From positions 1 through 64,000 of the forward strand of contig JAUZOD010000013.1 of the NCBI GenBank assembly GCA_030706635.1: a stretch of DNA of 64,000 bases, read 5' to 3'. Below are positions 3,708 to 63,485 of this stretch, in pieces. Each line of letters starts with the position of its first letter. The stretch's first letter is position 1. The notes under the pieces were generated by a model that saw only the letters and a list, made by a program, of their open reading frames with translations, was not told the origin of the DNA and did no database searches. A program made the position numbers and the translations under genes. The stretch is from Bacteroidota bacterium. Its GTDB lineage: Bacteria > Bacteroidota > Bacteroidia > Chitinophagales > Chitinophagaceae.

Positions 3708-4329
3708 TGCGGGAAAGCGGTTTAACCGGGAATGGATATTCCGACATCTGAACTACCAGTTTTCTCTTCCCGACGCTTATGCTATTACCGGACCAAACGG
3801 TTCCGGAAAATCCACCCTACTTCAGTTCGTCGGTGGCGCCCTGATGCCGAGCGAGGGGAAGATCTCCTATTCAAATGCCCGGGACATTCCGCCAACTGCC
3901 ATCTTTCAATATTTGTCCATTGCTGCGCCTTATCTGGAAACAGTTGAGGAAATGACAGCCAACGAATTTTTCAGGTTTCATCAGTCATTCAAGCCCTTTC
4001 TGCCCGGCATCAGCATACCCCAAATGCTGGATATTATCGGCCTTAGCGATGCAGGAGATAAACAGATCCGGTACTACTCCTCCGGAATGAAACAACGCGT
4101 CCGGCTCGCCCAGGCCTTCTTCTGCAACACGCCCGTGTTACTTTTGGACGAACCAACCACCAATCTCGATGCACCGGGCATAGCGCTGTATCATCAACTG
4201 ATCAAAACGTATTGCAGCGACCGGCTGGTACTGGTGAGCTCCAATGATCCACAGGAGTATGGATTTTGTAATCGGGTGATTGAAATGGAGAAAATCAAGA
4301 AGGGACAACGGATGACGAATGACAGTTGA
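3688..4329 (+). CDS. ABC transporter ATP-binding protein
   Basis: A 213-residue ATPase subunit. It has Walker A GPNGSGKST (about residues 38-46), signature YYSSGMKQRVRLA (about 129-141), where SSGMK replaces LSGGQ, and Walker B VLLLDEPTTNLD (about 149-160). No permease gene is next to it, so its partner and substrate are unknown. Its start overlaps the lpxA end by 20 bases, so it is probably cotranscribed with the lipid A genes, though this does not prove a role in envelope assembly. The last codons (MTNDS and the TGA stop) lie inside the left arm of an intergenic inverted repeat, so the natural C-terminus may have been altered by the repeat. Confidence 0.9.
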   Translation: MRITLTDAGKRFNREWIFRHLNYQFSLPDAYAITGPNGSGKSTLLQFVGGALMPSEGKISYSNARDIPPTAIFQYLSIAAPYLETVEEMTANEFFRFHQSFKPFLPGISIPQMLDIIGLSDAGDKQIRYYSSGMKQRVRLAQAFFCNTPVLLLDEPTTNLDAPGIALYHQLIKTYCSDRLVLVSSNDPQEYGFCNRVIEMEKIKKGQRMTNDS

Positions 4330-4430
4330 CGGACTTTATGTTCAGCATTCAGCCTTAAACCAATCAGCGTTTGCTGTTAGAATTCAATCCAGTCATCAAA
4401 CTTTTTGAGTAGTCCGTCAACCGTCATCCC
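4310..4430. repeat. intergenic inverted repeat A (7-mer type)
   Basis: Left arm 4310-4335 reads as the heptamers GATGACG AATGACA GTTGACG then GACT. Right arm 4411-4430, continuing into the alanine dehydrogenase stop region, is its inverse (on the minus strand GATGACG GTTGACG GACT). About 75 bases lie between. The element sits between two convergent genes, and both of their TGA stops fall in the arms. It may serve as a bidirectional terminator, but it has no T-run. It belongs with the repeats at 50681, 60197, 62184 and 63432. Confidence 0.75.
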
Positions 4431-5648
4431 TCACCGCTGACTCGCAATCAGCAAATTCAGATCCGTATATTTCAAATCAAAGCGCTGGCTGAGGTGAAAA
4501 TTGGTAAGCGCACCCTTGAACATGTAAATCCCGCTGCGCAAATGGATCTTGTGCCAGAGCAGGTTTTCAAATCCGCCTTCTTCAGACGCTTCCAGCAAAA
4601 GCGGGGTGATCACATTGCTGATGGCCTGGGAGGCTGTTCGGGCAAAACCGGAAGGAATATTCGGAACGCAATAATGGATCACACCATATTTAATGAACGT
4701 TGGATGTTCGTGGGAAGTAATTTCTGATGTTTCAAAACAACCGCCCCTGTCAATACTAACGTCTATGATCACACTACCCGCGCGCATATTGCTGACCATT
4801 TCCTCAGTAACCACCACCGGTGTGCGGCCGGTTTGCGAAGAAAGGGCGCCCACGGCTACCTCACAACTTTTTAATTGTTTGGAAAGAATCCGCGGTTCAA
4901 TCACGGAAGTATAGATCCGGAATCCGATATTGTTCTGGAGCCTTTTCAGGCGCGAGACGCTGTTGTCGAACACTTTCACCGAAGCGCCCAGCGCCAGGGC
5001 GGCCCGGGCGGCATATTCCCCTACAATGCCGGCACCCAGGATAATCACTTTTGTTGGTGGAATACCGGAAATGCCACCCAGCAATACCCCCTTGCCGTGA
5101 TTGGCCGAACTCAGATACTGAGCCGCCACCAGCATTACAGCGCCGCCGGCAATCTCACTCATGCTGCGCACAATGGGATAACTGCCGCTGTCGTCTTTTA
5201 AATTTTCAAATGAAATACCCGTAATGCGTTTGGACATCATCTTTTCCAGCAGGTCGGCTTTGAGGGCAGATAAATGAATGGGCGAAATGATCGTCTGATT
5301 CATCTGCAGCAGGGGCAGGTCCTCTTCCACTACAGGCGCGGATTTAATCAGGGTTGGACATTTATACACCTCGGCCTTGTCATATACGATTCGGGCCCCG
5401 GCTTCACTGTAATCCTTATCACGGTAGTGGGCTGCTTCGCCGGCGTCATGCTCAATCAGTATTTCGTGGCCATTGCTGATCAGCACGCTCACGGCTTCAG
5501 GTGTAAGACCAATCCTGTTTTCCTGAAAAGCGGTTTCCTTGGGAACCCCAATGCGAAGCACGCTGGATTTCGGTTTTATGTCAAGCGTCTCTTCTAAAGT
5601 TTCATAGCTGAAGGAAGTGCTGATAAAGGGTTTCTGTTGTTGCGCCAT
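4431..5648 (-). CDS. ald: alanine dehydrogenase
   Basis: NAD-dependent alanine dehydrogenase of the AlaDH/PNT family, 405 residues, interconverting L-alanine and pyruvate plus ammonia. The N-terminal domain has RIGVPKET and the segment IKSAPV, where a substrate-binding lysine is expected; the PIHLSA segment holds the likely catalytic histidine. The NAD-binding Rossmann turn is GAGIVGEYAARAAL (about residues 205-218). It has an N-terminal extension of about 30 residues, which I believe is usual for the Bacteroidota form. tsaE lies 81 bases upstream on the same strand and may be cotranscribed. The TGA stop lies in the right arm of inverted repeat A. Confidence 0.92.
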   Translation of the reverse strand: MAQQQKPFISTSFSYETLEETLDIKPKSSVLRIGVPKETAFQENRIGLTPEAVSVLISNGHEILIEHDAGEAAHYRDKDYSEAGARIVYDKAEVYKCPTLIKSAPVVEEDLPLLQMNQTIISPIHLSALKADLLEKMMSKRITGISFENLKDDSGSYPIVRSMSEIAGGAVMLVAAQYLSSANHGKGVLLGGISGIPPTKVIILGAGIVGEYAARAALALGASVKVFDNSVSRLKRLQNNIGFRIYTSVIEPRILSKQLKSCEVAVGALSSQTGRTPVVVTEEMVSNMRAGSVIIDVSIDRGGCFETSEITSHEHPTFIKYGVIHYCVPNIPSGFARTASQAISNVITPLLLEASEEGGFENLLWHKIHLRSGIYMFKGALTNFHLSQRFDLKYTDLNLLIASQR

Positions 5649-5729
5649 GGTTTCAGGACTTTTCCATCCGGTTTTATATCCGGAAAGGGTGGGGGTGAAA
5701 ATTACAATTTTATCCTGAATTCGTACGGA

Positions 5730-6143
5730 TTATGACCCCGTTACCTGAATTTTTCTGTGGGTTTTGTCAATCGTTTCAAAATGCGAATGCAAACTGCCGG
5801 GTGGGAAAATGCCAGGTGCTCTTTCCGGCCATTCCACCAAACAGATATCACCCGAATAAAGACAGTCTTCCACCCCGGCCCGTATAGCTTCATCCTCATC
5901 TTTTATCCGGTAAAGATCGATATGGAAAATCGTTCCGCCAGGATATCCGTACTCGTTGATGATGGAGAAAGTGGGACTGCTCACCGTATCCTGAACTTTT
6001 TTTACTGCACATAGTGCGTGGATAAAAGTCGTTTTTCCGGCGCCCAGCTGACCACTGAAACTGAATATTTTTTTGTCAGGATTACTTAACCAGAATTCCT
6101 CGGCCAGAGATTTCAGGTCTGAAAGGGTAAAAATTCGCTCCAT
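5730..6143 (-). CDS. tsaE: TsaE, tRNA threonylcarbamoyladenosine synthesis ATPase
   Basis: Small P-loop ATPase (137 residues) that works with TsaB, TsaC and TsaD to make the t6A modification next to the anticodon of ANN-decoding tRNAs. Walker A is GQLGAGKTTF (about residues 27-36), followed by SSPTFSIINEY and the Walker B-like FHIDLYRI. CLVEWPE near residue 105 is also typical. The length is normal. It is divergent from the copper ATPase gene, with about 95 bases between the start codons, and reads in the same direction as ald downstream. Confidence 0.95.
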   Translation of the reverse strand: MERIFTLSDLKSLAEEFWLSNPDKKIFSFSGQLGAGKTTFIHALCAVKKVQDTVSSPTFSIINEYGYPGGTIFHIDLYRIKDEDEAIRAGVEDCLYSGDICLVEWPERAPGIFPPGSLHSHFETIDKTHRKIQVTGS

Positions 6144-6203
6144 CCCGCAAAGATAGAATCCTTCTTAGTGCCGAAATAGATGATCTGCCCGCTGGGATTG
6201 TGG

Positions 6204-6211
6204 TAAATTTG
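6204..6211 (+). promoter_or_regulatory. putative -7 element of the copper ATPase gene
   Basis: TAAATTTG fits TAnnTTTG and ends 27 bases before the chosen ATG at 6239. No clear -33 box and no operator palindrome were found, so metal control is not visible. Confidence 0.4.
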
Positions 6212-6238
6212 CCCCTCGGTTTTACAGACAGCATCAGT

Positions 6239-8344
6239 ATGGAAACAATAAACTGGAAAGTGGAAGGAATGAGTTGCAGCGCCTGTGCGCAAACCGTTGA
6301 AGGATTTCTGCGGAAAAAAGGAATGCGGGAGGTTAGTGTAAGCCTTACCGCCGGGGAAGTGAGTTTTCAGCATGCCAATCCAATACCGGAGACTGAACTC
6401 AAAAAGGGCATTTCGAATCTTGGCTATTTTGTGGCCGATGGGTCTGTTCAGAAAAAACCCATAGACAAATTCCTTGTTTACCTGGCTGTTTGCATTCCCT
6501 TTACTTTGTTGCTGATGTTGCATATGTTTTCACATTGGCAACCGCTGCGCTGGTTAGGAGACGCCTGGGTGCAGCTTGTTTTATGTGTTCCGGTTTACCT
6601 CACAGGAATGTATTTTTTCGGAAGAAGCGCCATCGCCAGTCTGCTGATGCGGAAGCCGAATATGAATGTGCTGATTGCCCTGGGCGCAACGGCAGCTTTT
6701 GTTTACAGCCTGGCCGGAACCATCCTGCAGCTCGGGGAAGCATACTTGTTTTATGAAACGTCCGCAGCCATTATTACCCTGGTGTTTCTCGGAAATTATG
6801 TTGAAGAACGATCTTTACGCAGCACACAGCGGGCGCTCCGGCAACTCCTGAAATCCCAGGACCTCAAAGCCAATATGATTGCTTTTGATAATGAACATCG
6901 GGAAATCATTTTCCCGGTGGATGGCCGGCAACTGCGCAGCGGGGACCTGATCCTGATCAAAACGGGTGAACAGGTTCCAGCCGACGCAAAGATCCTCTGG
7001 GGAACGGCACAGGTGGACGAAGCCATTATTACCGGAGAAAGCTTGCCGCTTGGCAAAAAGCCGAAAGACCTGCTGATTGGAGGAAGTCTGATCCTGGATG
7101 GAACGGTGAAAGCCCAGGTAACGCATGCGGCAAAAGATTCAGTTTTGTCCAACGTGGTCAACCTGGTGAAAAGGGCACAACAGGATAAGCCCAAAATCCA
7201 GTTGCTGGCCGACCGGATCAGCGCCGTATTCGTTCCGGTCGTCATCGGCATCGCCGTTCTTTGTCTCGTAGTTAATTATATTCTGCTGCACAACCTCACT
7301 GCTTCCCTGATGCGAAGTATAGCCGTGCTCGTGATTGCATGCCCTTGCGCAATGGGACTCGCCACCCCGGCAGCCATAGCGGTGGGCCTTGGTCGCGCCG
7401 CCAGAAATGGAATTCTTTTCCGGCATGCAGACAGCCTTGAATTATTCAAGGATATCCGGCAGATTGTTTTCGATAAGACAGGCACCCTCACCACGGGGTC
7501 ATTCAGCATCAGCCGTTTTGAAATTCAGGATAAAACGATCTCCGAATCTGATTTCAAGCGCATTCTGTTTTCACTCGAAAAATATTCCAGTCATCCGATT
7601 GCTAAATCTGTAGCAAAGGCCTGGAAAGCACAACCGGAAATCCGGTGGACAAAGCTGGAAGAGATAAAGGGACTTGGTATCCGTGCCTCGGATGCGCACG
7701 GTAATGAATATAAGGCGGGATCAGGGAAATTTTTTCAGGAAGAAACCGCATCCGATCATTCTGTTTATATTTCGAAAAATGGTAATCTGATCGGCTGGGT
7801 CGATATCCAGGATGAACTCCGGCCCGAAGCGGCGGAAGTTGTCCGTTATTTTAAAGCGCGGGATATGCGGACCATTCTACTGAGCGGCGACCGGCTACAA
7901 AAGTGCAAGGATATTGCGGAGATCCTGGGCATTGACGAAGTGATCGCGGAACAATCTCCTTTGCAAAAGCTGGAACAAATAGAAAGACTTTCCGCTATTG
8001 CCCCAACGGCCATGGTCGGCGATGGGATTAACGATGCACCTGCGCTCGCCAAAGCAAGCCTTGGTATTTCGATGAGCGATGCATCACAGATTGCTCTGCA
8101 AACGGCAGACGTGGTGCTGATGAACAGCGGGCTGAAGAAATTACCCATGTCGCTCCAATTGGGTAAACTTACATTCTCCACGATCCGCCAAAATCTTTTC
8201 TGGGCTTTCGTTTACAATATCATTGCTATCCCGGTGGCAGCCATCGGTTTGCTTACGCCGGCAATCGGCGCGCTGGCCATGGCCCTGAGCGATGTGGTTT
8301 TGCTGATCAATTCCTCCAGGTTATTTGTAAAAAAGCTACAGTAA
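6239..8344 (+). CDS. copA: heavy-metal (probably Cu+) translocating P-type ATPase
   Basis: P1B-type ATPase of 701 residues that should export Cu(I) across the inner membrane. Order of parts: one heavy-metal-associated domain with the CxxC pair C13/C16 in GMSCSAC; four membrane segments; the actuator loop with TGES; the channel motif CPC in VIACPCAMGLATP; the phosphorylation motif DKTGTLT; the HP motif in SSHPIAKS; the hinge GDGINDAPAL; and two final membrane segments. The open frame starts 13 codons earlier, but METINW at 6239 is the natural start. One departure: the last helix reads MALSDVV, where classical CopA has MxxSS, so exact metal choice is less certain. No copper chaperone or regulator is adjacent. 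Confidence 0.92.
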   Translation: METINWKVEGMSCSACAQTVEGFLRKKGMREVSVSLTAGEVSFQHANPIPETELKKGISNLGYFVADGSVQKKPIDKFLVYLAVCIPFTLLLMLHMFSHWQPLRWLGDAWVQLVLCVPVYLTGMYFFGRSAIASLLMRKPNMNVLIALGATAAFVYSLAGTILQLGEAYLFYETSAAIITLVFLGNYVEERSLRSTQRALRQLLKSQDLKANMIAFDNEHREIIFPVDGRQLRSGDLILIKTGEQVPADAKILWGTAQVDEAIITGESLPLGKKPKDLLIGGSLILDGTVKAQVTHAAKDSVLSNVVNLVKRAQQDKPKIQLLADRISAVFVPVVIGIAVLCLVVNYILLHNLTASLMRSIAVLVIACPCAMGLATPAAIAVGLGRAARNGILFRHADSLELFKDIRQIVFDKTGTLTTGSFSISRFEIQDKTISESDFKRILFSLEKYSSHPIAKSVAKAWKAQPEIRWTKLEEIKGLGIRASDAHGNEYKAGSGKFFQEETASDHSVYISKNGNLIGWVDIQDELRPEAAEVVRYFKARDMRTILLSGDRLQKCKDIAEILGIDEVIAEQSPLQKLEQIERLSAIAPTAMVGDGINDAPALAKASLGISMSDASQIALQTADVVLMNSGLKKLPMSLQLGKLTFSTIRQNLFWAFVYNIIAIPVAAIGLLTPAIGALAMALSDVVLLINSSRLFVKKLQ

Positions 8345-8365
8345 TTTTATTTTGGATAGTATGAG

Positions 8366-10270: not shown

Positions 10271-10613
10271 CGGCTTTAATTGTGGCGAATTCGCCATAAT
10301 TTAAAAACCTCATATTTCCTGGCGCTCCAGACAATTTTCAACGGCGCTTTAAGGGTAGTTCCTGCTTATTGCTATCAATCCGATCAGGTTATTTCAGTTT
10401 TTTGGTAGCTGAATTGTTCAGTAATGTCTCCAACTTTACCAACACTTGATTTTTTGCATTAGGAGTTTGGCTTTCTACGCCATTTTGACAGTAAGACCAT
10501 TTTGCAGATATTGGGAAAGGAGGGAAGTTGCCCTGGAAACAGCATTAAATCGAAGGCCGATCAAAGGCCGATATTCCGGCAATAAATCATCTCGCGAATC
10601 CCATCAACTTTTG
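10271..10613. other. gene-free stretch between convergent genes
   Basis: No gene is supported in these 343 bases between the recQ stop and the permease stop. There is a short imperfect palindrome around GGCGAATTCGCC (about 10283-10294), with no T-run after it. A 60-codon plus-strand frame (10446-10628) overlaps the permease gene end and has no recognisable features. No member of the 7-mer or 8-mer inverted repeats is here. Confidence 0.5.
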
Positions 10614-12992: not shown

Positions 12993-13001
12993 CGTTTAAT
13001 G

Positions 13002-13030: not shown

Positions 13031-13158
13031 ATATACGCATCCATCAGCAACGATATTTGTGCCGTTTCCTTAAATGGCTAATAATCAGAAATTTACAACT
13101 TCAGGGCCGGGGACAGCCGTCCGAATCCGAACAGTTGCTGTCCGTTCTCAGCTTACAG

Positions 13159-13216
13159 TGGATAGTAGATGGTGAATAGACCGTCAACCTTCATCCATTC
13201 ACTATCTACTATCCAC
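13159..13216. repeat. intergenic inverted repeat B (GTGGATA heptamers)
   Basis: Left arm 13159-13178 (GTGGATA GTAGATG GTGAAT) and right arm 13192-13216 are inverse copies with few mismatches around a 13-base loop that contains CCGTCAACC, a piece of the other heptamer family. The right arm ends two bases before the homoserine dehydrogenase stop codon. The hairpin could form in RNA from either strand, and no T-run follows, so terminator function is uncertain. Confidence 0.7.
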
Positions 13217-13218
13217 CT

Positions 13219-15824: not shown

Positions 15825-15858
15825 AATATATTGATAGATTAATAAGCTGTGGATCTGA

Positions 15859-15976
15859 CTTATCTGTCTCGTTTTTTAACGAGATGGAGTTGGCACCTTG
15901 CCCGGATCGCGTTACACAAATCGGAGCAGGTTGTCAAGGCTTCAGCGGGCCATTTCCCTCAGCCTTTCTTGATAAG
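15859..15976 (-). promoter_or_regulatory. SAM-I (S-box) riboswitch
   Basis: Minus-strand aptamer of about 118 bases. The P1 helix pairs CTTATC (15976-15971) with GATAAG (15864-15859). Between them, in order, come the conserved S-box segments: AAGAAAGGCTGAGGGA, then TGGCCCGCTGAAGCC, then GACAACC, and near the 3' end CAAGGTGCCAACTCC. A hairpin with arms CTCGTT and AACGAG follows (15868-15884), then the closing P1 strand. It binds S-adenosylmethionine and should turn off the metB-hom operon when SAM is plentiful, through the terminator at 15790-15824. A -7 promoter box lies 20 bases upstream. Confidence 0.93.
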
Positions 15977-15995
15977 CGTTTGATAAGAACTGGGT

Positions 15996-21232: not shown

Positions 21233-21480
21233 GTTAATGTGCTGATGTAAAAATGCGCTAATGTGTTAATGCTTTGCCCACCCTAGCTTTAGCGAAGGTG
21301 GTGGAAATGTTTTTCCAGTCAATGCGAGCCGATAGCTAATTTCGGAATTTGATCATAATCAGCCTCAGTTAATCAAATAAAACTTTTTCTGTTACACCGG
21401 TCATTTACATATTTTCCCCCACCTTCGCTAAAGCTAGGGTGGGCAAACACATTAGCGCATTTTCACGTCAGCACATTAAC
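21233..21480. repeat. inverted repeat C1 with REP-like palindrome (8-mer type)
   Basis: Left arm 21233-21304 and right arm 21415-21480 are inverse copies about 66-72 bases long, the longest pair in the window. The outer half of each arm is built of octamers of the form NNNATGTG (TTAATGTG, CTGATGTA, CTAATGTG). The inner half is the shared 26-base module 21276-21301, inverted at 21419-21444. That module is itself a near-palindrome (CCCACC to GGTGGG), as in REP elements. The left arm has about seven extra bases. The arms lie three and zero bases from the start codons of the divergent flanking genes. Confidence 0.85.
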
Positions 21481-23028
21481 ATGCGTCTCCTTTTCATCTT
21501 CTTATCCGTTCTTTCCATTTCCGGGCTCGGTGCGCAGAAAATCCGATCAGTGGACATCTGTATCTATGGATCCACCTCAGGAGGCGTGATCGCAGCCTAT
21601 ACGGCAGCAAAGATGGGAAAAAAGGTGCTGCTGGTAACGCCAGACAACCACCCGGGGGGAATAACATCCGGGGGATTGGGCATGACCGATATTGGTAATA
21701 AATCTGCCATCACGGGAATTGCACGGGATTTTTACCGCCGCATTGGGGAACACTATGGAAAACGGGAGCAGTGGATCTTTGAGCCTCATGTGGCGGAGGC
21801 GGTGTTTAACACGTATCTGCGTCTCGGAAAAGTAGAAGTGTGGTACGGCCAGGGCCTCTTATCCGTGGTCCGGAACAAACAAAAGATTCAGGAAATAGAA
21901 ACCGGTAGTACACAAAAGACGGATGCTGATCGCCGGACCGTTAGGGCTGCTGTATTTATAGATTGTTCTTATGAAGGAGACCTCATGGCGAAAGCAGGTG
22001 TTTCTTATACCATTGGCCGTGAGCCAAACAGTCTCTATCACGAAACTTACAATGGGGTTCAGTTACGGGATAAACATCAGTTTCCCGACGCCGTGGATCC
22101 CTACCGGATTCCTGGAGATTCCCAAACTGGTTTATTATGGGGCATCAGTGCAGAACAACTGGCTCCGGATGGCACGGGGGATAAGAAAATCCAGGCTTAC
22201 AATTTCAGGGTTTGTTTAACGGACAGTGTGGCTAACCGGATTGATATTACCCGGCCAGCAGGATATGATTCCTCCCGGTATCTTTTGCTTTTACGTTATC
22301 TCGAAAAAAAGAATCCGGCCTCGCTGGATGACGGTGTGCTGAATATTAACCTGATGCCGGGCAGGAAAACAGATATCAACAACAACGGCCCTTTCTCCAC
22401 CGATATGATCGGCATGAATTATGACTATCCGGAAGCCGGACCGGGAACCAGGAAAGAAATCATTCTTCGGCACGAAATCTATGTAAAAGGCCTATTGTAT
22501 TTTTTGGGCCATGACGAACGCGTGCCGACACATTTACGGAATGAAATGCTCCGTTGGGGTTATCCGAAGGACGAGTATCAGGACAATGATCATTGGTCGC
22601 CTCAGCTATACATCCGCGAGGCGCGACGCATGACCGGAGAATACATTATGACACAGGCGAATTGTACAGGCATGGAGAAAGTCGCTGACGGTATCGGCAT
22701 GGCTGCGTACACCATGGATGCTCACAATTGCGAAAGGGTTATTGTAAATGGGATGGTGAAAAATGAAGGAGACGTGCAGATCGGCGGGTTTCCGCCTTAT
22801 CCCGTTTCCTACCGGGCCATTGTTCCGAAAACAAATGAGTGCAGCAATCTGCTGGTTCCGGTTTGTTTGTCAGCCAGCCATATTGCTTATGGCTCCATTC
22901 GTATGGAGCCGGTATTTATGGTACTCGGCCAATCCGCTGCCCTGGCGGCGGTGCTGGCATTAAATCTGCACCTGACAGTTCAGCAGGTGAAAATTGAGGA
23001 TATCCGGAGGATGCTGAGGCAAATGTGA
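21481..23028 (+). CDS. exported FAD-dependent oxidoreductase
   Basis: A 515-residue protein with a signal peptide (MRLLFIFLSVLSISGLGAQ) and a flavin-binding fold that starts at once: ICIYGSTSGGVIAAYTAAKMG, then VLLVTPDNHPGGITSGGLG. This fits the FAD_oxidored family (PF12831) often annotated as xanthan lyase-like or putative sugar oxidoreductase in Bacteroidota. The C-terminal FAD contact region is near APAIL/SIRMEPVFMVLGQSAALAA. The true substrate is not known. I start at ATG 21481; the longer frame would read through the inverted repeat arm. The TGA stop lies in the left arm of repeat C2. Confidence 0.85.
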   Translation: MRLLFIFLSVLSISGLGAQKIRSVDICIYGSTSGGVIAAYTAAKMGKKVLLVTPDNHPGGITSGGLGMTDIGNKSAITGIARDFYRRIGEHYGKREQWIFEPHVAEAVFNTYLRLGKVEVWYGQGLLSVVRNKQKIQEIETGSTQKTDADRRTVRAAVFIDCSYEGDLMAKAGVSYTIGREPNSLYHETYNGVQLRDKHQFPDAVDPYRIPGDSQTGLLWGISAEQLAPDGTGDKKIQAYNFRVCLTDSVANRIDITRPAGYDSSRYLLLLRYLEKKNPASLDDGVLNINLMPGRKTDINNNGPFSTDMIGMNYDYPEAGPGTRKEIILRHEIYVKGLLYFLGHDERVPTHLRNEMLRWGYPKDEYQDNDHWSPQLYIREARRMTGEYIMTQANCTGMEKVADGIGMAAYTMDAHNCERVIVNGMVKNEGDVQIGGFPPYPVSYRAIVPKTNECSNLLVPVCLSASHIAYGSIRMEPVFMVLGQSAALAAVLALNLHLTVQQVKIEDIRRMLRQM

Positions 23029-23121
23029 AAATGTGGAAATGTGCTGATGTGTAAATGAGGATCAGTCAGTACTATTGTGAATTCTATTTTCACATTAGCA
23101 CATTTCCACATCAGCACATCA
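23021..23121. repeat. intergenic inverted repeat C2 (8-mer type)
   Basis: Left arm 23021-23051 is a run of octamers AAATGTGA, AAATGTGG, AAATGTGC, TGATGTG. Right arm 23091-23121 is its inverse (minus strand CTGATGTG GAAATGTG CTAATGTG), with a 39-base spacer. It lies between two convergent genes, and the TGA stops of both fall in the arms (23026-23028 for the oxidoreductase, 23119-23121 for rarA). Same unit as repeats C1, D and I. Confidence 0.8.
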
Positions 23122-48247: not shown

Positions 48248-48925
48248 ATGATCCCATCAGAAGCTTCCCCGGCCATCCTTTCGGCCAGAAATATCGAAAA
48301 ATACTACGGCAAACTGCATGTTCTAAAGGGGGTAAACCTTGATATTAACAAGGGAGAGATCGTAAGTATGGTTGGTCCTTCCGGATCTGGGAAAAGCACG
48401 CTTTTGCATATTTTGGGCACACTGGATGAGCCGGCCTCGGGGGAGATCTTTTTGGAGAACCGGCGTCTGCAGACTTTGAAAGGAAAATCTTTGGCAGCGT
48501 TCCGGAACCGCCATATCGGGTTCGTATTTCAATTTCATCACCTGTTGCCGGAATTTACCGCGCTGGAGAACGTATGTATACCGGGATGGATCGCCGGCCG
48601 GAAAAAATCGGAAGTTAAGGAGCGGGCAATGCAACTATTGGAAATACTGGGCGTAAGCCACCGGACCGAAAACAAACCCTCCGCTTTATCGGGCGGTGAG
48701 CAACAACGGGTTGCCGTAAGCCGTGCCCTGATCAATAATCCGGATATTGTTTTCGCCGATGAACCCACAGGAAACCTGGACTCTGCGAATGCCCGAGAAC
48801 TGCATCAGCTTTTTTTTGATCTGCGCAAACAATTTAATCAAACCTTCCTGATCGTAACCCACAATGAAGCGCTGGCCGAGCAGAGTGACCGGGTGCTGAG
48901 GATGCGGGACGGGATGATAATTTGA
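48248..48925 (+). CDS. lolD: LolD-type ABC transporter ATPase
   Basis: A 225-residue ATPase of the LolD/MacB class. Walker [20 protein letters not shown] (about 38-56), Q-loop FQFHHLLPEFTALENV, signature ALSGGEQQRVAVSRALINNP and Walker [17 protein letters not shown] are complete. It most likely drives lipoprotein release from the inner membrane with LolCE-like permeases, which are not in the window. The start used is ATG 48248, five codons inside the longest frame. The TGA stop (48923-48925) is provided by the repeat octamer ATTTGAAA of inverted repeat D. It is convergent with the cobalamin adenosyltransferase gene. Confidence 0.85.
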   Translation: MIPSEASPAILSARNIEKYYGKLHVLKGVNLDINKGEIVSMVGPSGSGKSTLLHILGTLDEPASGEIFLENRRLQTLKGKSLAAFRNRHIGFVFQFHHLLPEFTALENVCIPGWIAGRKKSEVKERAMQLLEILGVSHRTENKPSALSGGEQQRVAVSRALINNPDIVFADEPTGNLDSANARELHQLFFDLRKQFNQTFLIVTHNEALAEQSDRVLRMRDGMII

Positions 48926-48994
48926 AAATTTGAAAATGAATCGGCTCTGTCTTCGTCATTTTCAAATTGCCAGATTTTCAAATTTTCAAATTGT
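48917..48994. repeat. intergenic inverted repeat D (8-mer type)
   Basis: Left arm 48917-48940 (ATAATTTG AAAATTTG AAAATGAA) and right arm 48956-48994 (minus strand ACAATTTG AAAATTTG AAAATCTG GCAATTTG AAAATGA) enclose a 15-base loop. It overlaps the 3' ends of both convergent neighbours: TGA stops at 48923-48925 and 48978-48980 lie inside it. Same octamer series as repeats C1, C2 and I (NNNATKTG). Confidence 0.8.
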
Positions 48995-50680: not shown

Positions 50681-50770
50681 CAGTTGACGGTTGACAGTTG
50701 TCGGTTGACGGACTTTAGGCCCGAATTCGCACCTGATTACGGTCAACCGTCAGCGGTCAACCGTCAACTG
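50681..50770. repeat. intergenic inverted repeat E (7-mer type), divergent gap
   Basis: Left arm 50681-50711 (CA, GTTGACG GTTGACA GTTGTCG GTTGACG G) and right arm 50741-50770 are inverse copies around a 29-base loop (50712-50740). The outer 15 bases of the arms pair perfectly. It lies between the divergent gatC and trpS starts, so it cannot be an ordinary terminator of either. The loop contains CGAATTCGCAC, a near match to CGGATTCGCAC in the loop of repeat H. Confidence 0.85.
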
Positions 50771-52511: not shown

Positions 52512-52515
52512 AATA

Positions 52516-55728: not shown

Positions 55729-55771
55729 CCCGGACATTAAACCCGAACCCGAGACAAACCCGCATATTTTC

Positions 55772-56778: not shown

Positions 56779-56903
56779 GAATTTGAAAATTTGAAAATGT
56801 GCTGATTTGAAAATGATTTCAGGCACAGGCTTATAAAGCTCAATACAGAAATCTGAATTTGTTTTCATTTTCAAATTTTCAAATCAGCAAATTTTCAAAT
56901 TCC
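56779..56903. repeat. intergenic inverted repeat I (8-mer type)
   Basis: Left arm 56779-56816 (GAATTTG AAAATTTG AAAATGTG CTGATTTG AAAATGA) and right arm 56866-56903 (minus strand GGAATTTG AAAATTTG CTGATTTG AAAATTTG AAAATG) enclose about 49 bases. Units with ATTTG and with ATGTG are mixed here, which ties the D type and C type together. It lies between co-directional purS and rsmI; the right arm ends two bases before the rsmI ATG. Confidence 0.82.
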
Positions 56904-56905
56904 CC

Positions 56906-57571: not shown

Positions 57572-57598
57572 TGTTTATCTTTTTAAATCGTTCATTAT

Positions 57599-59479
57599 AT
57601 GATGAGGCAGTCGCGTGTTTTTTTGAAAACATTTTTTCGTCCGGCAGCCTGTATGCTTATCGTGCAGTGTATTGCTGTTTTTTGTTTTGCCCAGCCTGAC
57701 CGATGGCAGCAGCGCGTGAAATATTTTATGGATATCGACATGAACGTTGTCAATAACCGGTTTGACGGAAAGCAGCATCTGGAATACAGCAATCATTCAC
57801 CAGACACCCTGCGTAAGATTTTCTATCATTTGTATTGGAATGCTTTTCAGCCGAACAGCATGATGGACAACCGGAGCCGCGTACTGGGGCAAACACTCAT
57901 CAACGACAATCCGGATTGGGACGATCGTGTCAGAGACAGGATACTGCATTTAACACCCGCAGAGATTGGTTATCAGAGAATACTGTCCCTCAAAATGAAT
58001 GGTGTTGAGCAGCCATTTAAGGTGGAAGAGACCATTCTTGAAGTAACCCTGACCAAGCCCATTCTTCCGAATAGCACCGTAAATCTGGACATGGAGTTTG
58101 AAGCGCAGGTGCCTTTGCAAATCCGCCGGAGCGGCCGGGATAACCCGGAAACCCAGGTGCGTTATTCCATGAGCCAGTGGTATCCCAAACTATGCGAATA
58201 CGATTATGCAGGATGGCATCCTACACCCTATGTAGGACGTGAGTTCTATGGCGTCTGGGGTGATTTTGATGTTAAGATCCGTATTGACAAAACCTATATA
58301 CTGGGAGGAACCGGCTATTTACAGAACCCCAACCAGATCGGCTACGGATATGAATCTCCAGGTACGAAAATTATCCGGCCCAAAGGGGAAAAACTAACCT
58401 GGCATTTCTATGCACCCAACGTGCATGATTTTGTTTGGGCAGCCGATCCGGAGTTTAAACATGCCAGTAAGAAAATCCGTGAAGGGCTGACCCTGCATGT
58501 ATTGTATAAGACCAACAAAACCCCCGAGAAGAAATGGTTAAATATTCTGGATCAGGCCGCACTGGCATTGCCGTTTATTGAAAAGACCTTCGGCCCCTAT
58601 CCCTACAAACAGTATTCATTTATTAATGGCGGAGATGGTGGCATGGAATACCCTATGGCAACCCTGCTGAAGGATTCTGGTGGCTGGATGCATGAGTTTA
58701 TGCATAGCTGGAACCAGGGCATGCTGGGTACGAATGAATTGAAATATCCCTGGATGGATGAAGGATTTACTCAGTACGCCGGCGCCCGGGTTTGGGGATA
58801 TTTAAATAAAGACACATCGGACGATCAGATCTATAAAAATGAATACAATCATTATTTCTCTCTGGCTAAAAGCAATTTGCAGGAACCCCTGAGTACATAC
58901 GCAGATTTTTACAATACCAATATGGGTTATAATCTTTCTGTTTATTATAAAGGAGCCGTTTTTATGGTTCAGCTGGGGTATATTGTCGGAGATCAGGTGC
59001 TGGACAGGATACTCCTGGAATATTACCGGGAATGGCGTTTTAAACATCCAAATGCCGACGATTTTTTTCGCGTGGCGGAAAAAGTGAGTGATCTGCAGCT
59101 CGACTGGTACAAGGATTTTTGGATCAACAGCATCAAAACGGTGGATTATGGAATAGACAGCCTCTGGGAAGTGAACGGGAAAACCAGGATTCGTTTACGC
59201 ATGATCGGGAAAGTTCCGATGCCCCTGGATGTGTTGCTGCAGTTCAAAGATGGCAGCCGGGAAATGGCGTATATACCTCAGTACCTGATGTTCGGATCGA
59301 AACCGGTGGAAGATAAATCCATTCCACGCATCGTTTATGAACCCTGGAAATGGACCAGTCCCGATTATGAGTTTGAAATCAATCACCGGCTTACGGACCT
59401 CAAAGAAATAGAAATAGATCCTTCACACCGGATGGCAGACTTGAATCGGGGAAATAATCGTCTGGAGCTGAAATGGTAG
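57599..59479 (+). CDS. exported M1-family metallopeptidase
   Basis: A 626-residue zinc peptidase with a signal peptide (about 1-32, ending VFCFAQ). The N-terminal beta domain is followed by the substrate-binding GGMEYP motif and HExxH-x18-E zinc site: GGWMHEFMHSWNQG then EGFTQYAG (about residues 364-394). GGMEYP replaces the GAMEN motif of classical aminopeptidases. A second M1 gene lies at the right end of this window. It likely trims peptides in the periplasm; specificity is unknown. It starts 27 bases after rsmI. Confidence 0.92.
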   Translation: MMRQSRVFLKTFFRPAACMLIVQCIAVFCFAQPDRWQQRVKYFMDIDMNVVNNRFDGKQHLEYSNHSPDTLRKIFYHLYWNAFQPNSMMDNRSRVLGQTLINDNPDWDDRVRDRILHLTPAEIGYQRILSLKMNGVEQPFKVEETILEVTLTKPILPNSTVNLDMEFEAQVPLQIRRSGRDNPETQVRYSMSQWYPKLCEYDYAGWHPTPYVGREFYGVWGDFDVKIRIDKTYILGGTGYLQNPNQIGYGYESPGTKIIRPKGEKLTWHFYAPNVHDFVWAADPEFKHASKKIREGLTLHVLYKTNKTPEKKWLNILDQAALALPFIEKTFGPYPYKQYSFINGGDGGMEYPMATLLKDSGGWMHEFMHSWNQGMLGTNELKYPWMDEGFTQYAGARVWGYLNKDTSDDQIYKNEYNHYFSLAKSNLQEPLSTYADFYNTNMGYNLSVYYKGAVFMVQLGYIVGDQVLDRILLEYYREWRFKHPNADDFFRVAEKVSDLQLDWYKDFWINSIKTVDYGIDSLWEVNGKTRIRLRMIGKVPMPLDVLLQFKDGSREMAYIPQYLMFGSKPVEDKSIPRIVYEPWKWTSPDYEFEINHRLTDLKEIEIDPSHRMADLNRGNNRLELKW

Positions 59480-59503
59480 AATAATCGGAAAATAGAATCC
59501 GGT

Positions 59504-60166
59504 CTATCTCCTGAAATATTTGTTGATTGCCTCCACCCGGTTTCCTACGTGCAGTTTTTCATAGATGTGGTACACATGTTTGCGTACAGTCTCCTGACTG
59601 ATATAGAGGTTAGCGGCGATTTCCTTATACAGGAATCCAAGGGAAAGTTGCTGCAGGATCTCATTCTCCCGGTTTGATAAAACGGGCAATGGTTTTGCCT
59701 TTCCTGAGAAAGATCCTGCCCAGATTCCCCGTACGGAAGAAGTATGTTGAAAAGCGTTCACCACTTTCCTGGCGATCTGGCTGCTCATAGGTGCTCCGCC
59801 TTGCGTCAATTCCCTGATCGCTTCCAGCAGGCGGTCGGGATGTGTTTTCTTCAGAACATATCCGTGGGCGCCGGCATTCAGTGCTTCGAATATTTTCTCA
59901 TCGTCGTCGTATACCGTACAAATCAAAAACAGCAGCCCGGGATATTTTGGTTTGAGTTCCCGTATAATGTCTATTCCGCTCTCTTCATCGCCCAGATTGA
60001 TATCAATTAAAGTGACCTGTGGCCGGAGAGCCGGAATCAGGATAATGGCTTCCTGAAATCCGGAACAACTGCCAGCCAGTTCAAAATCCTCTGTTCTCAG
60101 GATCAATAACTCCATTGCATTGCGTATTTCCGGGTGATCTTCAACGATGCATACGGAGATGGACAT
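59504..60166 (-). CDS. NarL/LuxR-family response regulator
   Basis: A 220-residue regulator. Receiver (about 1-120): acidic pair in VCIVEDH, phosphoacceptor aspartate in VTLIDINLGDEESG, switch residue in ICTVYDDD and lysine in VLKKTHP. The LuxR-type helix-turn-helix is at the C-terminus: LSNRENEILQQLSLGFLYKEIAANLYISQETVRKHV is split here as LSNRENEILQQL and LYISQETVRKHVYHIYEKL. No histidine kinase is adjacent. It is convergent with the M1 peptidase gene, with 24 bases between the stops. Repeat F lies 30 bases upstream. Confidence 0.9.
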   Translation of the reverse strand: MSISVCIVEDHPEIRNAMELLILRTEDFELAGSCSGFQEAIILIPALRPQVTLIDINLGDEESGIDIIRELKPKYPGLLFLICTVYDDDEKIFEALNAGAHGYVLKKTHPDRLLEAIRELTQGGAPMSSQIARKVVNAFQHTSSVRGIWAGSFSGKAKPLPVLSNRENEILQQLSLGFLYKEIAANLYISQETVRKHVYHIYEKLHVGNRVEAINKYFRR

Positions 60167-60196
60167 GGGTTGAATATTTGTAGATGAGGATTTTCG

Positions 60197-60276
60197 GGTT
60201 GACGGTTGACAGTTGACGGTTGACCGATTTCAGGGCGGACTTCGAAAGAAAAGTCGGTCAACCGTCAACCGTCAAC
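60197..60276. repeat. intergenic inverted repeat F (7-mer type)
   Basis: Left arm 60197-60227 (GGTTGAC GGTTGAC AGTTGAC GGTTGAC CGA) and right arm 60254-60276 are inverse copies; the stem extends inward as CCGATTT with AAGTCGG. The loop is about 25 bases. It lies between two co-directional minus-strand genes (rsmG upstream, the regulator downstream). Confidence 0.85.
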
Positions 60277-60332
60277 TCTTTAACCCGGGATAATTAAATT
60301 TACCGTACCTCTCCGGAGCACGAACAGTAAAA

Positions 60333-60992
60333 TCACCCTCTGCCATAGGGTATATGCAGGAGATACTTCTCAATAAATGCAGGTTCGGGAAATAGTTGGT
60401 GCACATCGGTGATGCCGGGGCGGCTGCCACTGTCTGAGATTTCAGAATTGAGGTCGCCCCCCTTTAAACAGATGAGGCCGCTGGCAAAGGGGCGTCCATT
60501 TTCTGAATCCCGGGTTTGCTGGGGCATTTGATTTTTCAGCAATGGCCGGGACCATTCCCATAATTCCCTTAACGAAGCCGCCGCGCGGGAAACTGCAACA
60601 TCAAATTTCCTTCCTTTGATTTCCTCTGCCCGGATATGTTCGGTGCTTACATTTTTTAAGCCGAGAGCTTCTTTTATCCCTTCTACTACTTTGAGTTTTT
60701 TTCCAATGCTGTCTACCAGGTGAAAATCAACCTCAGGAAAAAAAATAGCCAGTGGAATGCCCGGAAATCCGCCACCGGTGCCGATATCAATCACCCGGCT
60801 GCCGGGCGGGAAATCAAATACGGCGGCGATGCTCAGGGAATGCAGTACGTGTTTTTCATAAAGGCTCCCAATGTCTTTCCGGGAGATTACGTTGATTTGC
60901 GTATTCCAATGACCATACAATGCCTCCAGCGCACCAAGCTGTTCCAGTTGTTCCGGTGTAAAATCAGCGAAATAACGGGTAACTATCTCCAT
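60333..60992 (-). CDS. rsmG: RsmG, 16S rRNA G527 methyltransferase
   Basis: SAM-dependent methyltransferase for m7G527 of 16S rRNA, 219 residues from the chosen start. The N-terminus reads LGALEALYGHWNTQINVISRKD. The SAM-binding turn is VIDIGTGGGFPGIPLAIFFP (about 72-91), followed by VDSIGKKLKVVEGI and the catalytic-region VSRAAASLREL. The long frame extends upstream through the end of the glycosyltransferase gene; MEIVTRYF at 60992 overlaps that gene by ten bases and fits the family start. ATG 61013 is an alternative. Loss of RsmG confers low-level streptomycin resistance in other bacteria. Confidence 0.93.
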   Translation of the reverse strand: MEIVTRYFADFTPEQLEQLGALEALYGHWNTQINVISRKDIGSLYEKHVLHSLSIAAVFDFPPGSRVIDIGTGGGFPGIPLAIFFPEVDFHLVDSIGKKLKVVEGIKEALGLKNVSTEHIRAEEIKGRKFDVAVSRAAASLRELWEWSRPLLKNQMPQQTRDSENGRPFASGLICLKGGDLNSEISDSGSRPGITDVHQLFPEPAFIEKYLLHIPYGRG

Positions 60993-62119
60993 TCCATGCG
61001 GGGCTTCTTCCATAATAATGAAGGTGCAAAAATGAGATAATATCCGATCATCCAGATATCCAGTAACCACCAGAAAGGAAAAAGATCGGCTTCGTTCAGT
61101 TTTTTCATGACCCTGAAATAAATAAATCCCTGCAGTAAAAAACGCAATCCAAAAACAGCCAGGGTCCAGGTCCAGTGAAAATAGATCAGGCTGATGATGA
61201 ACGCCGGATAGAATAAAAACTGGCTTACCGAATATAAGCCGAGCAGCCATTGTTGTTTCGGCCGGTAAAATTTTCCGGTGCTATGATGACGGTTTTTCTG
61301 CCGGACCCATTCGCGAAATGTTTTTTTGGGTTCCGATAACGTAAAAGATTCCGGATCGATCACGATCTGTGTATTGGCTCCATGGGCAACCTGGTTGATG
61401 AACAGGTCATCATCGCCACCAGGTAAATGATTTACAGAGGAAAATCCCTTATTCTTAAAAAACAAATCCTTTTTATAGGATAAATTTCTTCCTACGCCCA
61501 TATAGGGCCGACCTGCCAGGGCATAGGAGAAATATTGGAGGGCCGTATGAAAGGTTTCAAAGCGGATCAGTTTATTAAGCACACCCGGCTGCTTCCGGTA
61601 TGGACTGTATCCCAGCACCACCTGTATCCCTTCATCATAACCATCCTGCATTCTTTCTATCCAGCATTCGCTTGCCGGAACACAATCGGTATCCGTAAGC
61701 AAAACCACCTCATGTTTAGCCTCTTTGATGCCTATGCTGAGCGGGTATTTTTTCCCCGGAATTCCTTTGGCTTCATATTCCAGATTCACGATATGTAATC
61801 CTTTATACGTCTTCTTGAATTCTTCCAGCAGGTAGCGGGTATCATCCTGACTGTTGTGGTTGACTACAATCACTTCGTAGGTGCTGGGATAAGTCTGCAC
61901 CAGAGATCCGGGAAGATTGGCAGCCAGATTGGGCGCTTCATCCCGGGCGCAGATGATTACACTTACGGGATGTTGCTGGGATTTTTCTTTCACCGGTTTG
62001 CGGAAGAAAGCCAGTCTTTGAAAAAACCACGTGTAGTAGAAAACCTGGATACCCGTGATCAGACAAAAAATCGTAAACCAAATCTCACTCCAGGATAAAT
62101 AGGACGGCAGTTTATACAT
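60983..62119 (-). CDS. membrane glycosyltransferase family 2
   Basis: A 378-residue inverting glycosyltransferase with an N-terminal membrane helix (about 10-30) and C-terminal helices (about 285-365). The GT-A domain has HPVSVIICARDEAPNLA, the DxD-type LLTDTDCVPASE, the acceptor region GGDDDLFINQVA and a QxxRW-like RQKNRHHSTGKF. This is the pattern of processive or polyprenyl-linked transferases on the cytoplasmic face of the membrane. Product unknown; no polysaccharide cluster surrounds it. Its end overlaps rsmG by ten bases, so the two are probably cotranscribed. Confidence 0.9.
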   Translation of the reverse strand: MYKLPSYLSWSEIWFTIFCLITGIQVFYYTWFFQRLAFFRKPVKEKSQQHPVSVIICARDEAPNLAANLPGSLVQTYPSTYEVIVVNHNSQDDTRYLLEEFKKTYKGLHIVNLEYEAKGIPGKKYPLSIGIKEAKHEVVLLTDTDCVPASECWIERMQDGYDEGIQVVLGYSPYRKQPGVLNKLIRFETFHTALQYFSYALAGRPYMGVGRNLSYKKDLFFKNKGFSSVNHLPGGDDDLFINQVAHGANTQIVIDPESFTLSEPKKTFREWVRQKNRHHSTGKFYRPKQQWLLGLYSVSQFLFYPAFIISLIYFHWTWTLAVFGLRFLLQGFIYFRVMKKLNEADLFPFWWLLDIWMIGYYLIFAPSLLWKKPRMEWR

Positions 62120-62183
62120 TCAATGCTACAGTTAGTTAGGGACGGTAAATTTACGTAATAATACGGTTTCCCGGGATCAATTC

Positions 62184-62269
62184 GCTGACGGTTGACAGTT
62201 GACGGTTGACCGATGTCAGCCACGAATGTGCATGTGAAGGCCTTCAACCGTCAACTGTCAACCGCCAAC
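62184..62269. repeat. intergenic inverted repeat G (7-mer type), divergent gap
   Basis: Left arm 62184-62213 (GCTGACG GTTGACA GTTGACG GTTGACC GA) and right arm 62240-62269 (minus strand GTTGGCG GTTGACA GTTGACG GTTGAAG) enclose a 26-base loop. It lies between the divergent glycosyltransferase and tgt start codons, 65 and 22 bases away. The loop carries CGAATGTGCATGTGA, related to the loop of repeat E. Confidence 0.85.
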
Positions 62270-62290
62270 CCTAACTTGCAGGTTTATCTC

Positions 62291-63430
62291 ATGCCGCATC
62301 TATCCTTTAATCTCATTGCCACTGATCCTTCTTCCAAAGCCCGCGCCGGTCTTATACAAACTGATCATGGGGATATTCCAACACCCATTTTCATGCCTGT
62401 CGGTACAGCGGGTAGCGTAAAAGCAGTCACTGCCGGCCAGCTGGAACAGGAAGTGAAGGCCCGGGTCATCCTGGGCAATACCTATCATCTTTATTTGCGG
62501 CCGGGTACCGGGGTGCTGGAAAATGCCGGCGGAATTCATCGTTTTATAAACTGGAGCAGACCTGTGCTCACCGACAGCGGCGGATACCAGGTTTTTTCTC
62601 TCGCCGGGACCCGGAAGATCACGGAAGAAGGTGTTGTGTTCAAATCTCATATTGACGGATCCGCTCATTTGTTCACGCCGGAAAAAGTAATGGATATTCA
62701 ACGCAGCATAGGCGGCGATATCATCATGGCTTTTGATGAATGCCCGGCTTTCGGAGCAGGGTATGAATATGCCAGGTCCTCCATGGATCTTACACACCGC
62801 TGGCTGGACAGATGTCTGGCGCGGTTCGCCGGTACGCCGGACAAATACGGATATGCTCAAAATCTTTTTCCGATCGTGCAGGGTGGGGTCTTTGAGGACC
62901 TGCGCCGGGAATCCTGCGAATTTATTTCTTCCCGGAATGCATTGGGAAATGCCATCGGCGGATTAAGTGTAGGTGAGCCGGATGAGCAATTATATGAAAT
63001 GACAGCTCTTTGCTGCGAACATCTGCCCCCGGAAAAGCCCCGCTATCTGATGGGTGTCGGCACGCCATGGAATCTATTGGAATGCATCGCCCTGGGTGTT
63101 GACATGTTTGATTGCGTGATGCCTACGCGAAACGGAAGGAATGGTATGCTTTTCACCTCGAAGGGGGTGATTAATATTGATAATAAAAAATGGGAAAATG
63201 ACTTTTCGCCGATTGACGACGGCATTGATTGCACTTTAAGCAACCAATATAGTAAAGCGTATCTCCGGCACCTTATCAAAAGCAAAGAACTTACGGCTTT
63301 AACTATCGCCAGCGTGCATAATCTTTCGTTCTATCTGCATCTGGTAAAGGAGTGCCGTGAACATATCCTGCAGGGAGATTTTGCCAGTTGGAAAAATCAG
63401 CAGGTGGAATTACTTAAACAAAGGCTGTGA
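62291..63430 (+). CDS. tgt: tRNA-guanine transglycosylase
   Basis: Queuosine-pathway enzyme (379 residues) that swaps guanine 34 for preQ1 in tRNAs with GUN anticodons. The segments TDHGDIPTPIFMPVGTAGSVKA, the catalytic aspartate in LTDSGGYQVFSLAGT, GGDIIMAFDECPAFG, GGLSVGEP, YLMGVG and DMFDCVMPTRNGRNG with the zinc-binding C-terminus are all present. ATG 62291 (MPHLSFN) is used; the 26 codons upstream lie within inverted repeat G. The stop (63428-63430) is right at repeat H. Confidence 0.97.
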   Translation: MPHLSFNLIATDPSSKARAGLIQTDHGDIPTPIFMPVGTAGSVKAVTAGQLEQEVKARVILGNTYHLYLRPGTGVLENAGGIHRFINWSRPVLTDSGGYQVFSLAGTRKITEEGVVFKSHIDGSAHLFTPEKVMDIQRSIGGDIIMAFDECPAFGAGYEYARSSMDLTHRWLDRCLARFAGTPDKYGYAQNLFPIVQGGVFEDLRRESCEFISSRNALGNAIGGLSVGEPDEQLYEMTALCCEHLPPEKPRYLMGVGTPWNLLECIALGVDMFDCVMPTRNGRNGMLFTSKGVINIDNKKWENDFSPIDDGIDCTLSNQYSKAYLRHLIKSKELTALTIASVHNLSFYLHLVKECREHILQGDFASWKNQQVELLKQRL

Positions 63431-63431
63431 G

Positions 63432-63485
63432 AAGTTGACGGAACTCAATTGCGGATTCGCACACAAGGGCCGTCAACCGTCAACC
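63432..63485. repeat. intergenic inverted repeat H (7-mer type), short arm
   Basis: Left arm 63432-63441 (AAGTTGACGG) and right arm 63470-63485 (minus strand GGTTGACG GTTGACGG) enclose a 28-base loop with GGATTCGCAC. The pairing is only eight or nine bases, the weakest in the set. It lies between convergent tgt and the M1 peptidase gene, one base from each stop. Confidence 0.65.

Follow-up and report, generated by a model that had tools for sequence, protein, structure and literature searches.

Heptamer-armed intergenic hairpins of a Chitinophagaceae genome and their association with genes for 23S rRNA intervening-sequence proteins

The stretch of DNA analysed here, termed the window, comprises 64,000 nucleotides (nt) of contig JAUZOD010000013.1 from a genome of the family Chitinophagaceae (GCA_030706635.1). 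Its intergenic gaps contain a family of inverted repeats with arms composed of tandem heptamers of the form GTTGACN (Table 1). Five such repeats were described in a first-pass annotation of the window and all five were recovered at the places given there. Folded as single-stranded DNA, each exceeds 200 of 200 dinucleotide shuffles (z from −3.3 to −7.2). The description of the arms as two to four heptamers needs correction for the copy at 63434-63484, whose left arm is a single unit and whose right arm consists of two. Besides these, the window has five more hairpins of like build, one based on a different 7-mer and four on 8-mers (e.g. ATGTGNNN and ATTTGNNN); four of the five were included in the folding analysis, with 21233-21480 left out. 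In the same genome, arms of this kind enclose genes of the 23S rRNA intervening-sequence protein (IVP) family, and this strong association is the main subject of the work. The IVP gene, a rule of 7 or 8 nt that is independent of sequence, and the turnover of units were all outside the view of the first-pass annotation.

Hairpins of the window and the dispersed GTTGACN family

The genome to which the window belongs measures 4.58 Mb in 162 contigs and is nearly complete. Searched genome-wide with at most one mismatch, the pattern GTTGACNGTTGACNGTTGAC, representing three tandem GTTGACN units, gave 144 + 103 matches, as opposed to 29 + 9 for the reversed pattern. Arrangement of the repeats was followed in 848 kb, consisting of the window and 40 stretches on contigs chosen for having matches, and therefore not a random sample. 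These contain 45 GTTGACN clusters with three or more units, the majority with inverted arms, and cluster lengths mostly step by 7 (51, 58, 72, 79, 86, and 93 nt). Between the arms lies a conserved core, exactly 32 nt long in 26 copies, whose consensus, GGACTTTAGTTGCGAATTCGCACCTGAAGTCG, shows self-complementarity at 13 of 16 positions. Matches to a covariance model 58 positions long (R1, E ≤ 1e-4) number at least 150 in the own genome (G000), at least 149 in the congener G006, both counts being lower bounds, and 101 in G019; eight other congeners have 2 to 23 matches and 22 have none. Because listed copies match on both strands, the own genome holds at least about 75 copies. The family is thus not limited to five copies without a conserved loop, and it does not arise at an equal rate in shuffled sequence; block-shuffled sequence yielded no array. 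A plasmid collection searched with one hairpin gave no match.

Among 36 inverted copies, 22 lie in co-directional, 8 in divergent, and 6 in convergent gaps, and none within an open reading frame (ORF). The gaps of at least 60 nt that are available number 165, 96, and 57, respectively, according to crude gene calls; here, as in the counts of neighbour orientation and of 491 genes below, these were greedy long-ORF calls. Since the hairpins are distributed over gap types as available, they are not simply terminators, in agreement with the first-pass annotation, and this candidate explanation was rejected. One tract in the genome (L049:8680-8769) is made of thirteen perfect tandem GTTGACA units without an inverted partner.

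Table 1. Hairpins of the window, and the IVP genes located elsewhere in the same genome.
Feature	Position in window	Strand	Build and context
Hairpin	4313..4433	.	GTTGAC/GATGAC-type 7-mer arms 4313-4335 and 4411-4433, 75-nt centre
Hairpin	50681..50770	.	arms of four GTTGACN units each, some imperfect; 32-nt core
Hairpin	60198..60276	.	four and three GTTGACN units, 32-nt core
Hairpin	62184..62269	.	GTTGACN arms
Short hairpin	63434..63484	.	one and two GTTGACN units, 32-nt core; occupies whole convergent gap
Hairpin, like build, different 7-mer unit	13158..13216	.	GTGGATA/GTAGATG/GTGAATA
Nested element	21233..21480	.	outer 8-mer arms (ATGTGNNN); 105-nt centre; inner inverted repeat of 35 nt with 97% complementarity
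8-mer hairpin	23023..23119	.	unit ATGTGNNN
8-mer hairpin	48915..48992	.	unit ATTTGAAA
8-mer hairpin	56779..56902	.	units ATTTGAAA/ATGTGCTG
IVP gene 1			GTTGACN arms; between MoxR ATPase and DUF58 gene
IVP gene 2			AATGGAC/AATTGAC arms; between ABC transporter genes
IVP gene 3			8-mer arms ATGTGNNN; flanked by the flavoprotein and iron-sulfur genes of succinate dehydrogenase; internal stop in IVP gene

IVP genes between inverted arrays

A gene matching PF05635 (the IVP family) and TIGR02436 lies between two GTTGAC arms that are separated by about 500 nt. IVPs are four-helix-bundle proteins, with PDB relatives 2gsc and 2rld, annotated as "four helix bundle protein" and frequent in this order, where they were found in 34 of 57 relatives, with up to 13 genes per genome. 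The own genome has three IVP genes, none of them inside the window, and all three are located within operons and inside inverted tandem arrays that have three different units. Each of these units is also present in gene-less hairpins or arrays.

To quantify the association, the 300 nt downstream of a frame were reverse-complemented and aligned to the 300 nt upstream of it, and a score of 18 or more was taken as the presence of arms. The IVP profile was built from 12 seeds, and several IVP frames are partial or contain stops. The cut-off was picked on set 1, which consists of L071-L102 (three loci of the own genome and 29 of relatives) and 60 further stretches chosen with the same genus first; among 94 IVP frames in its 92 loci, 90 have enough flank, and the second frame of L135 repeats L088 and scores 16. 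It was then applied unchanged to set 2, the best 80 of 580 confirmed matches among named genomes, ranked by protein similarity only, with L199 dropped for its short flank. In set 1, arms surround 62/90 IVP frames in comparison to 3/193 other ORFs of the same loci (Fisher 2e-36), and in set 2, which spans many phyla, 42/79 in comparison to 5/162 controls (Fisher 1.5e-19). According to the titles of their records, loci above the cut-off come from, among others, Bacteroidota, Clostridia, Geobacter and other deltaproteobacteria, Betaproteobacteria, Acidobacteria, and Nitrospirae, as well as Omnitrophica, Cloacimonadota, Phycisphaerales, and Kaiserbacteria. An Rfam scan of 40 of the 80 named loci found no rRNA in them. 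In the own genome, which is rich in these elements, 7 of 491 genes reach a score of 18, and array units can be seen in the matched arm of six, as with genes lying between two separate hairpin copies.

A tandem array was scored where 18 or more of 21 positions were identical at the lag tested, and 13 periods were tried. In the 848 kb of the own genome, 58 arrays have period 7 and 13 have period 8, periods 14 and 16 are represented by 15 arrays each, period 11 by three and period 12 by one, while periods 4, 5, 6, 9, 10, 13, and 15 are absent; the block-shuffled sequence has no array at any of the 13 periods. G006 and G019 show the same pattern, with 46 arrays of period 7, 15 of period 8, and one of period 6. 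The same periodicity characterizes arms around IVP genes (score ≥ 16): identity at lags 7, 14, and 21 is 0.59, 0.56, and 0.53 in 68 arm pairs of set 1 and 0.56, 0.55, and 0.50 in 55 pairs of set 2, at other lags it is 0.24-0.36, with lag 8 the highest, and 34 control arms are nearly flat (0.35, 0.38, and 0.35). A clear flank period was detected in 91/168 IVP frames (73 of period 7, 16 of period 8, and one each of 9 and 13), and in 21/355 controls if any length is admitted. Units vary by locus, with 45 different period-7 units in set 1 loci and 52 in set 2 loci, and within a locus both arms share the unit. Stop codons in all frames were considered as the cause of period 7 and rejected, as some units inspected by eye are without a stop codon. 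The idea that protein clades determine the choice between 7 and 8 nt was also rejected as weak: this choice needs 12 changes on the tree, compared to a shuffled mean of 14.9 (9/300 shuffles as low).

Unit and protein covary. Among IVP pairs with non-homologous flanks, unit similarity is 4.77 of 7 when proteins are at least 60% identical (35 pairs; permuted 3.63, sd 0.15), 4.12 at 50-60% identity (168 pairs; permuted 3.66, sd 0.08), 3.69 at 40-50% (permuted 3.66), and, for proteins less than 40% identical, equal to or a little lower than in the permutations. Within the genus alone, same-site pairs included, mean unit similarity climbs from 3.48 to 5.19, and base composition of different groups is therefore not the cause of this covariation.

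Units are also shared in trans. Abundant AAAGCCT arrays are confined to G017 (425 matches) and G005 (171), and it is in these two genomes that an IVP with AAAGCCT arms was read. Arrays of TTATGGG occur in G006 (66), G019 (55), and G017 (47), and an IVP with TTATGGG arms is present in G006 and G019. GTTGAC arrays number 247 in the own genome, 195 in G005, 113 in G017, 107 in G006, 76 in G019, 66 in G015, and 38 in G025; the counts in G026 (16, control 29) and G022 (6, control 10) are not above the reversed-pattern control. One or more of the three units form clear arrays in 7/13 IVP-bearing and 0/20 IVP-less congeners (one-sided exact 4e-4), and matches to the core model were found in 10/13 and 1/20, respectively. 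Stretches of 200 kb, sampled at arbitrary places, contain one array of period 7 and one of period 8 in the IVP-bearing G009, G014, G020, and G026, and none of either period in seven IVP-less congeners; under a looser threshold of 16 of 21, 13 and 2 arrays of period 7 were obtained. Amplification in every IVP-bearing species can thus be dismissed: IVP-less hairpins multiply within one clade.

Turnover and position of the elements

Orthologous gaps differ in the presence and in the unit of the hairpin. In the gap corresponding to window position 62184 (26/30 loci readable, units assigned by eye), GTTGAT hairpins are present in G006 and G019, TAACGCC in G015, TAAAGCC in G017, and an 8-mer in G014, while the others have no such array. 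G006 lacks the copy at 63434, and G017 has an AAAGCCT hairpin in its place; the copy at 50681 corresponds to a GTTGAT hairpin in G006 and is absent in G017, and the copy at 60198 has a GTTGAC hairpin likewise in the orthologous gaps of G006 and G019. Hairpins of three other sites are likewise missing from a congener: L045:11801 from G006, the 8-mer hairpin L045:6030 from G017, and L069:2449 from G005. No target duplication could be recognised by eye at five presence/absence sites, where flanks differ by about 16-32%. Together with the copy number and the conserved core, these differences bear out the suggestion of the first-pass annotation that the hairpins represent a dispersed non-autonomous element. 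In G015, a GAGTTAT array is located within the loop of the TAACGCC hairpin (L245, gap orthologous to 62184), as if one element had entered another.

A search with the core deprived of its arms (E ≤ 0.5) disclosed in the own genome 30 copies with GTTGAC arms, 4 with GTTGAT, 5 with GTGGAT/GTATAT, 1 with GATGAC, and 2 unclassed, and in G006/G019 15 with GTTGAC, 9 with GTTGAT, and 2 unclassed; none was found in 200 kb of IVP-less genomes. The presence of one core between several arm types indicates that whole arms change their unit around a kept core.

IVP-bearing hairpins hold the same operon junctions over long times. They occur at sdhA/sdhB in 14 loci, of which 12 come from named genomes spread over several families, and at moxR/DUF58 in six congeners; other junctions involve genes with enoyl-CoA hydratase/thiolase, semialdehyde dehydrogenase/aminotransferase, and methionine synthase domains. 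IVPs from the same site are 19 to 93% identical and have different arm units, and those of the sdh site need four changes on the tree, so that some repeated arrival or loss is likely. Between sdhA and sdhB, the own genome and G006 have the gene in 8-mer arms and G014 has arms without the gene; the gap is at most 61 nt long in 10/29 loci, and the remaining loci have a different sequence or another gene. Among IVP genes compared there are no recent duplicates, the best within-genome pair being 62% identical (19 genomes, in which not every IVP was fetched), and the genes are under purifying selection, with dN/dS of 0-0.28 in the 22 closest pairs, for which dS is mostly saturated. When the first arm is read inward, G exceeds C in 103 cases and C exceeds G in 17 (controls 26 and 29). 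Because a hairpin reads alike from both strands, this bias reflects polarity of the element and not of transcription.

Some further occupied sites were recorded. In methionine synthase operons of different Bacteroidota (L172 and L168), IVP is located at two junctions, homocysteine methyltransferase/MetH and MetH/MTHFR. Both flanks of the IVP site in L166, a contig titled as a metagenome-assembled genome of Klebsiella pneumoniae, group with Flavobacterium L168 and Mucilaginibacter L224, and one IVP pair among the three is 93% identical; the title or binning of L166 looks doubtful. A table in PMC5524665 lists guanylate kinase, four helix bundle protein, and nicotinate-nucleotide adenylyltransferase consecutively, as phage elements, for both strains of Flavobacterium columnare. 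Judged from that table, this row of three genes is perhaps another IVP junction.

Interpretation and comparison with known systems

We lean, by a small measure, towards the explanation that the hairpins of the window are the non-coding part of a two-part element whose other part is the IVP gene in a hairpin of like build. Such an element would be organised like the repetitive extragenic palindromic (REP) doublets that form hairpins (REPINs) together with their REP-associated tyrosine transposases (RAYTs), with IVP in place of the transposase. The part of IVP in hairpin spread, which we infer, could consist in an IVP oligomer binding the repeated 7-nt units of a folded arm, perhaps with one unit per subunit, and promoting the copying or survival of hairpins that bear its own unit, while cutting and synthesis would be done by host enzymes. 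Slippage by one unit, combined with copying of one arm from the other, would keep the arms alike and let the unit drift. The solved Xanthomonas relative of IVP is described as a homopentamer of four-helix bundles (PMC4990558).

A wider form of this proposal, tentative and in our judgement doubtful, sees a new class of bacterial element set by the length of the repeat and not by its sequence. In it, the IVP oligomer would measure and copy arms in steps of 7 nt (or 8 nt), each lineage would have its own word and cognate protein, and the oligomer would seed IVP-less hairpins and rewrite arms in concert around a fixed core, with rRNA intervening sequences as a special case.

Several observations weigh against the two-part element. 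In set 1 about one third of the frames, and in set 2 about half, do not reach the score of 18, and the trans association was computed without correction for kinship. TTATGGG arrays of G017 have no cognate IVP among those read (the genome is 74% complete and one IVP was not fetched), and G022, without an IVP match at 78% completeness, has 15 weak core matches. The IVP-bearing G009, G014, G020, and G026 have few arrays outside the gene locus. In the own genome, the unit of the GTGGAT/GTATAT hairpins frames none of its three IVPs, although it frames the orthologous IVP of G019. Arms within one GTTGAC copy are 0.752 alike, compared to 0.736 between copies (320/5000 permutations as high), and the evidence for a mirror-image match of the two arms inside this family is thus weak. 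We know of no catalytic site in IVP, and the proposal as a whole is a computational one.

That the elements could act in RNA instead is rather unlikely, if less so than the remaining alternatives. The hairpin would then work within the operon transcript: IVP would bind the stem in its own mRNA, RNase III would cut this stem as it does in rRNA intervening sequences, and the stability or ratio of the flanking genes would be set in this way, IVP-less hairpins being the same device without the gene. Co-orientation of IVP with both neighbours (69/89 and 57/74, compared to 169/427 short background genes) and persistence at the sdhA/sdhB and moxR/DUF58 junctions accord with such a device, as does the cutting of rRNA intervening sequences by RNase III (PMC4990558). 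However, mismatches of the arms on the sense strand show no excess of G.U over A.C (155 vs 213), for which reason selection on a sense-RNA stem was rejected, IVP-less hairpins do not prefer co-directional gaps, and a period kept with free sequence is left unexplained. The absence of a G.U excess and the indifference to gap type weaken the RNA explanation, which may still apply to IVP-bearing copies.

The two-part element has further to be compared with explanations in which IVP has no role in movement. Hairpins resembling miniature inverted-repeat transposable elements (MITEs) might be moved by another transposase, with IVP genes riding along or favoured beside them. Movement must need catalysis, which IVP is not known to have, and searches of the own genome covered only Y1 transposases and reverse transcriptases. 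Nevertheless, we consider this explanation improbable: among genes tested, IVP genes are those regularly enclosed, in many phyla and with units following the protein, and a transposase would need to accept dozens of unrelated end sequences. Least probable, and already disfavoured, is plain replication slippage, by which 7-mers would expand by chance in gaps and form hairpins, with IVP genes merely marking tolerant places. Uninverted tracts, such as the thirteen GTTGACA units mentioned above, fit slippage. It would not, however, favour periods 7 and 8 while skipping 4, 5, 6, 9, and 10, and neither the lack of period 7 or 8 arrays in 200 kb of seven IVP-less congeners nor a core conserved over dozens of loci is in line with it.

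With REPIN-RAYT systems, as portrayed in PMC8049555 and PMC3733652, the elements share dispersed intergenic hairpins of two inverted repeats and a spacer, and also a protein gene, separate from the hairpins, that is present in single copy, is inherited vertically, and is bordered by the same repeat. They differ in the protein, a four-helix bundle and not an HUH tyrosine transposase, and in their arms, which are tandem 7/8-mers of free sequence, with the core and not the arm conserved in the GTTGAC family. The mobiliser suggested by the first-pass annotation, a REP-associated Y1 transposase (PF01797), did not materialise: there was no match in the own genome, compared to matches in 5/14 control genomes, the relatives being outside this search. 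Membership in REP/RAYT was rejected on this ground. Inspected by eye, the GTAG or CGTC end tag of REP superfamilies is not a general feature, since CGTC can be read in the GTTGACG arm and neither tag in AAAGCCT, TTATGGG, and ATGTGNNN.

Intervening sequences of 23S rRNA likewise have an inverted-repeat stem around an IVP/S23p ORF, as IVP-bearing copies do here, and are regarded as selfish (PMC4990558). They lie in rRNA genes, whereas the elements studied, among them the own three with an IVP gene, are positioned between protein genes of operons, with no rRNA match in the 40 scanned loci, and have tandem 7-nt arms and IVP-less copies in trans. TAACTGA heptamers of Beggiatoaceae, cyanobacteria, and a few Bacteroidetes are also tandem 7-nt intergenic units, but they repeat a single word in direct orientation, for the most part immediately before start codons; the excerpt of PMC4679880 used here has only one inverted case and names no linked gene. 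Avd of diversity-generating retroelements belongs to a related protein family (PMC10053308), and the match of IVP to NF033474 is weak, far under the cut-off. These retroelements differ by their reverse transcriptase: PF00078 has no match in the own genome and matches in 3/14 control genomes, and a retro-mechanism via Avd was rejected accordingly. MITEs are similar in being short and non-coding, with inverted ends, many copies, and presence/absence between relatives; ends of the present elements change sequence by locus and species, and no parent transposase was found in a search limited to the Y1 family. The Drosophila Foldback and Galileo elements are eukaryotic transposons with long terminal inverted repeats that have internal repetition. 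Their internally repetitive inverted repeats resemble the arms described here by analogy only.

As the elements lack, in our reading, a defining feature of each neighbouring system, we regard them as new in kind; to a reader who starts from intervening sequences they may be a distant variant of these. Titles and the beginnings of abstracts of open PMC papers, a scope that leaves aside subscription papers and preprints, revealed none linking IVP genes to tandem heptamers or intergenic hairpins. Even 25 years after rRNA intervening sequences had been discovered, both what they do and how they arose were described as unclear (PMC4990558). A gene between inverted 7-nt arrays, with a unit that follows the protein and can be dispersed in trans, provides IVP and these sequences with a testable substrate. 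The same rule is a possible explanation for anonymous 7-nt genomic repeats and advises caution in calling them terminators or regulators. If a repeat class is kept by length alone, with both arms changing together, a mechanism of copying or pairing is required, and to our knowledge none such has been described for REPs, MITEs, or microsatellites.

Apart from the elements described, the window contains a SAM riboswitch at 15857-15978 on the minus strand (RF00162, 76.7 bits).

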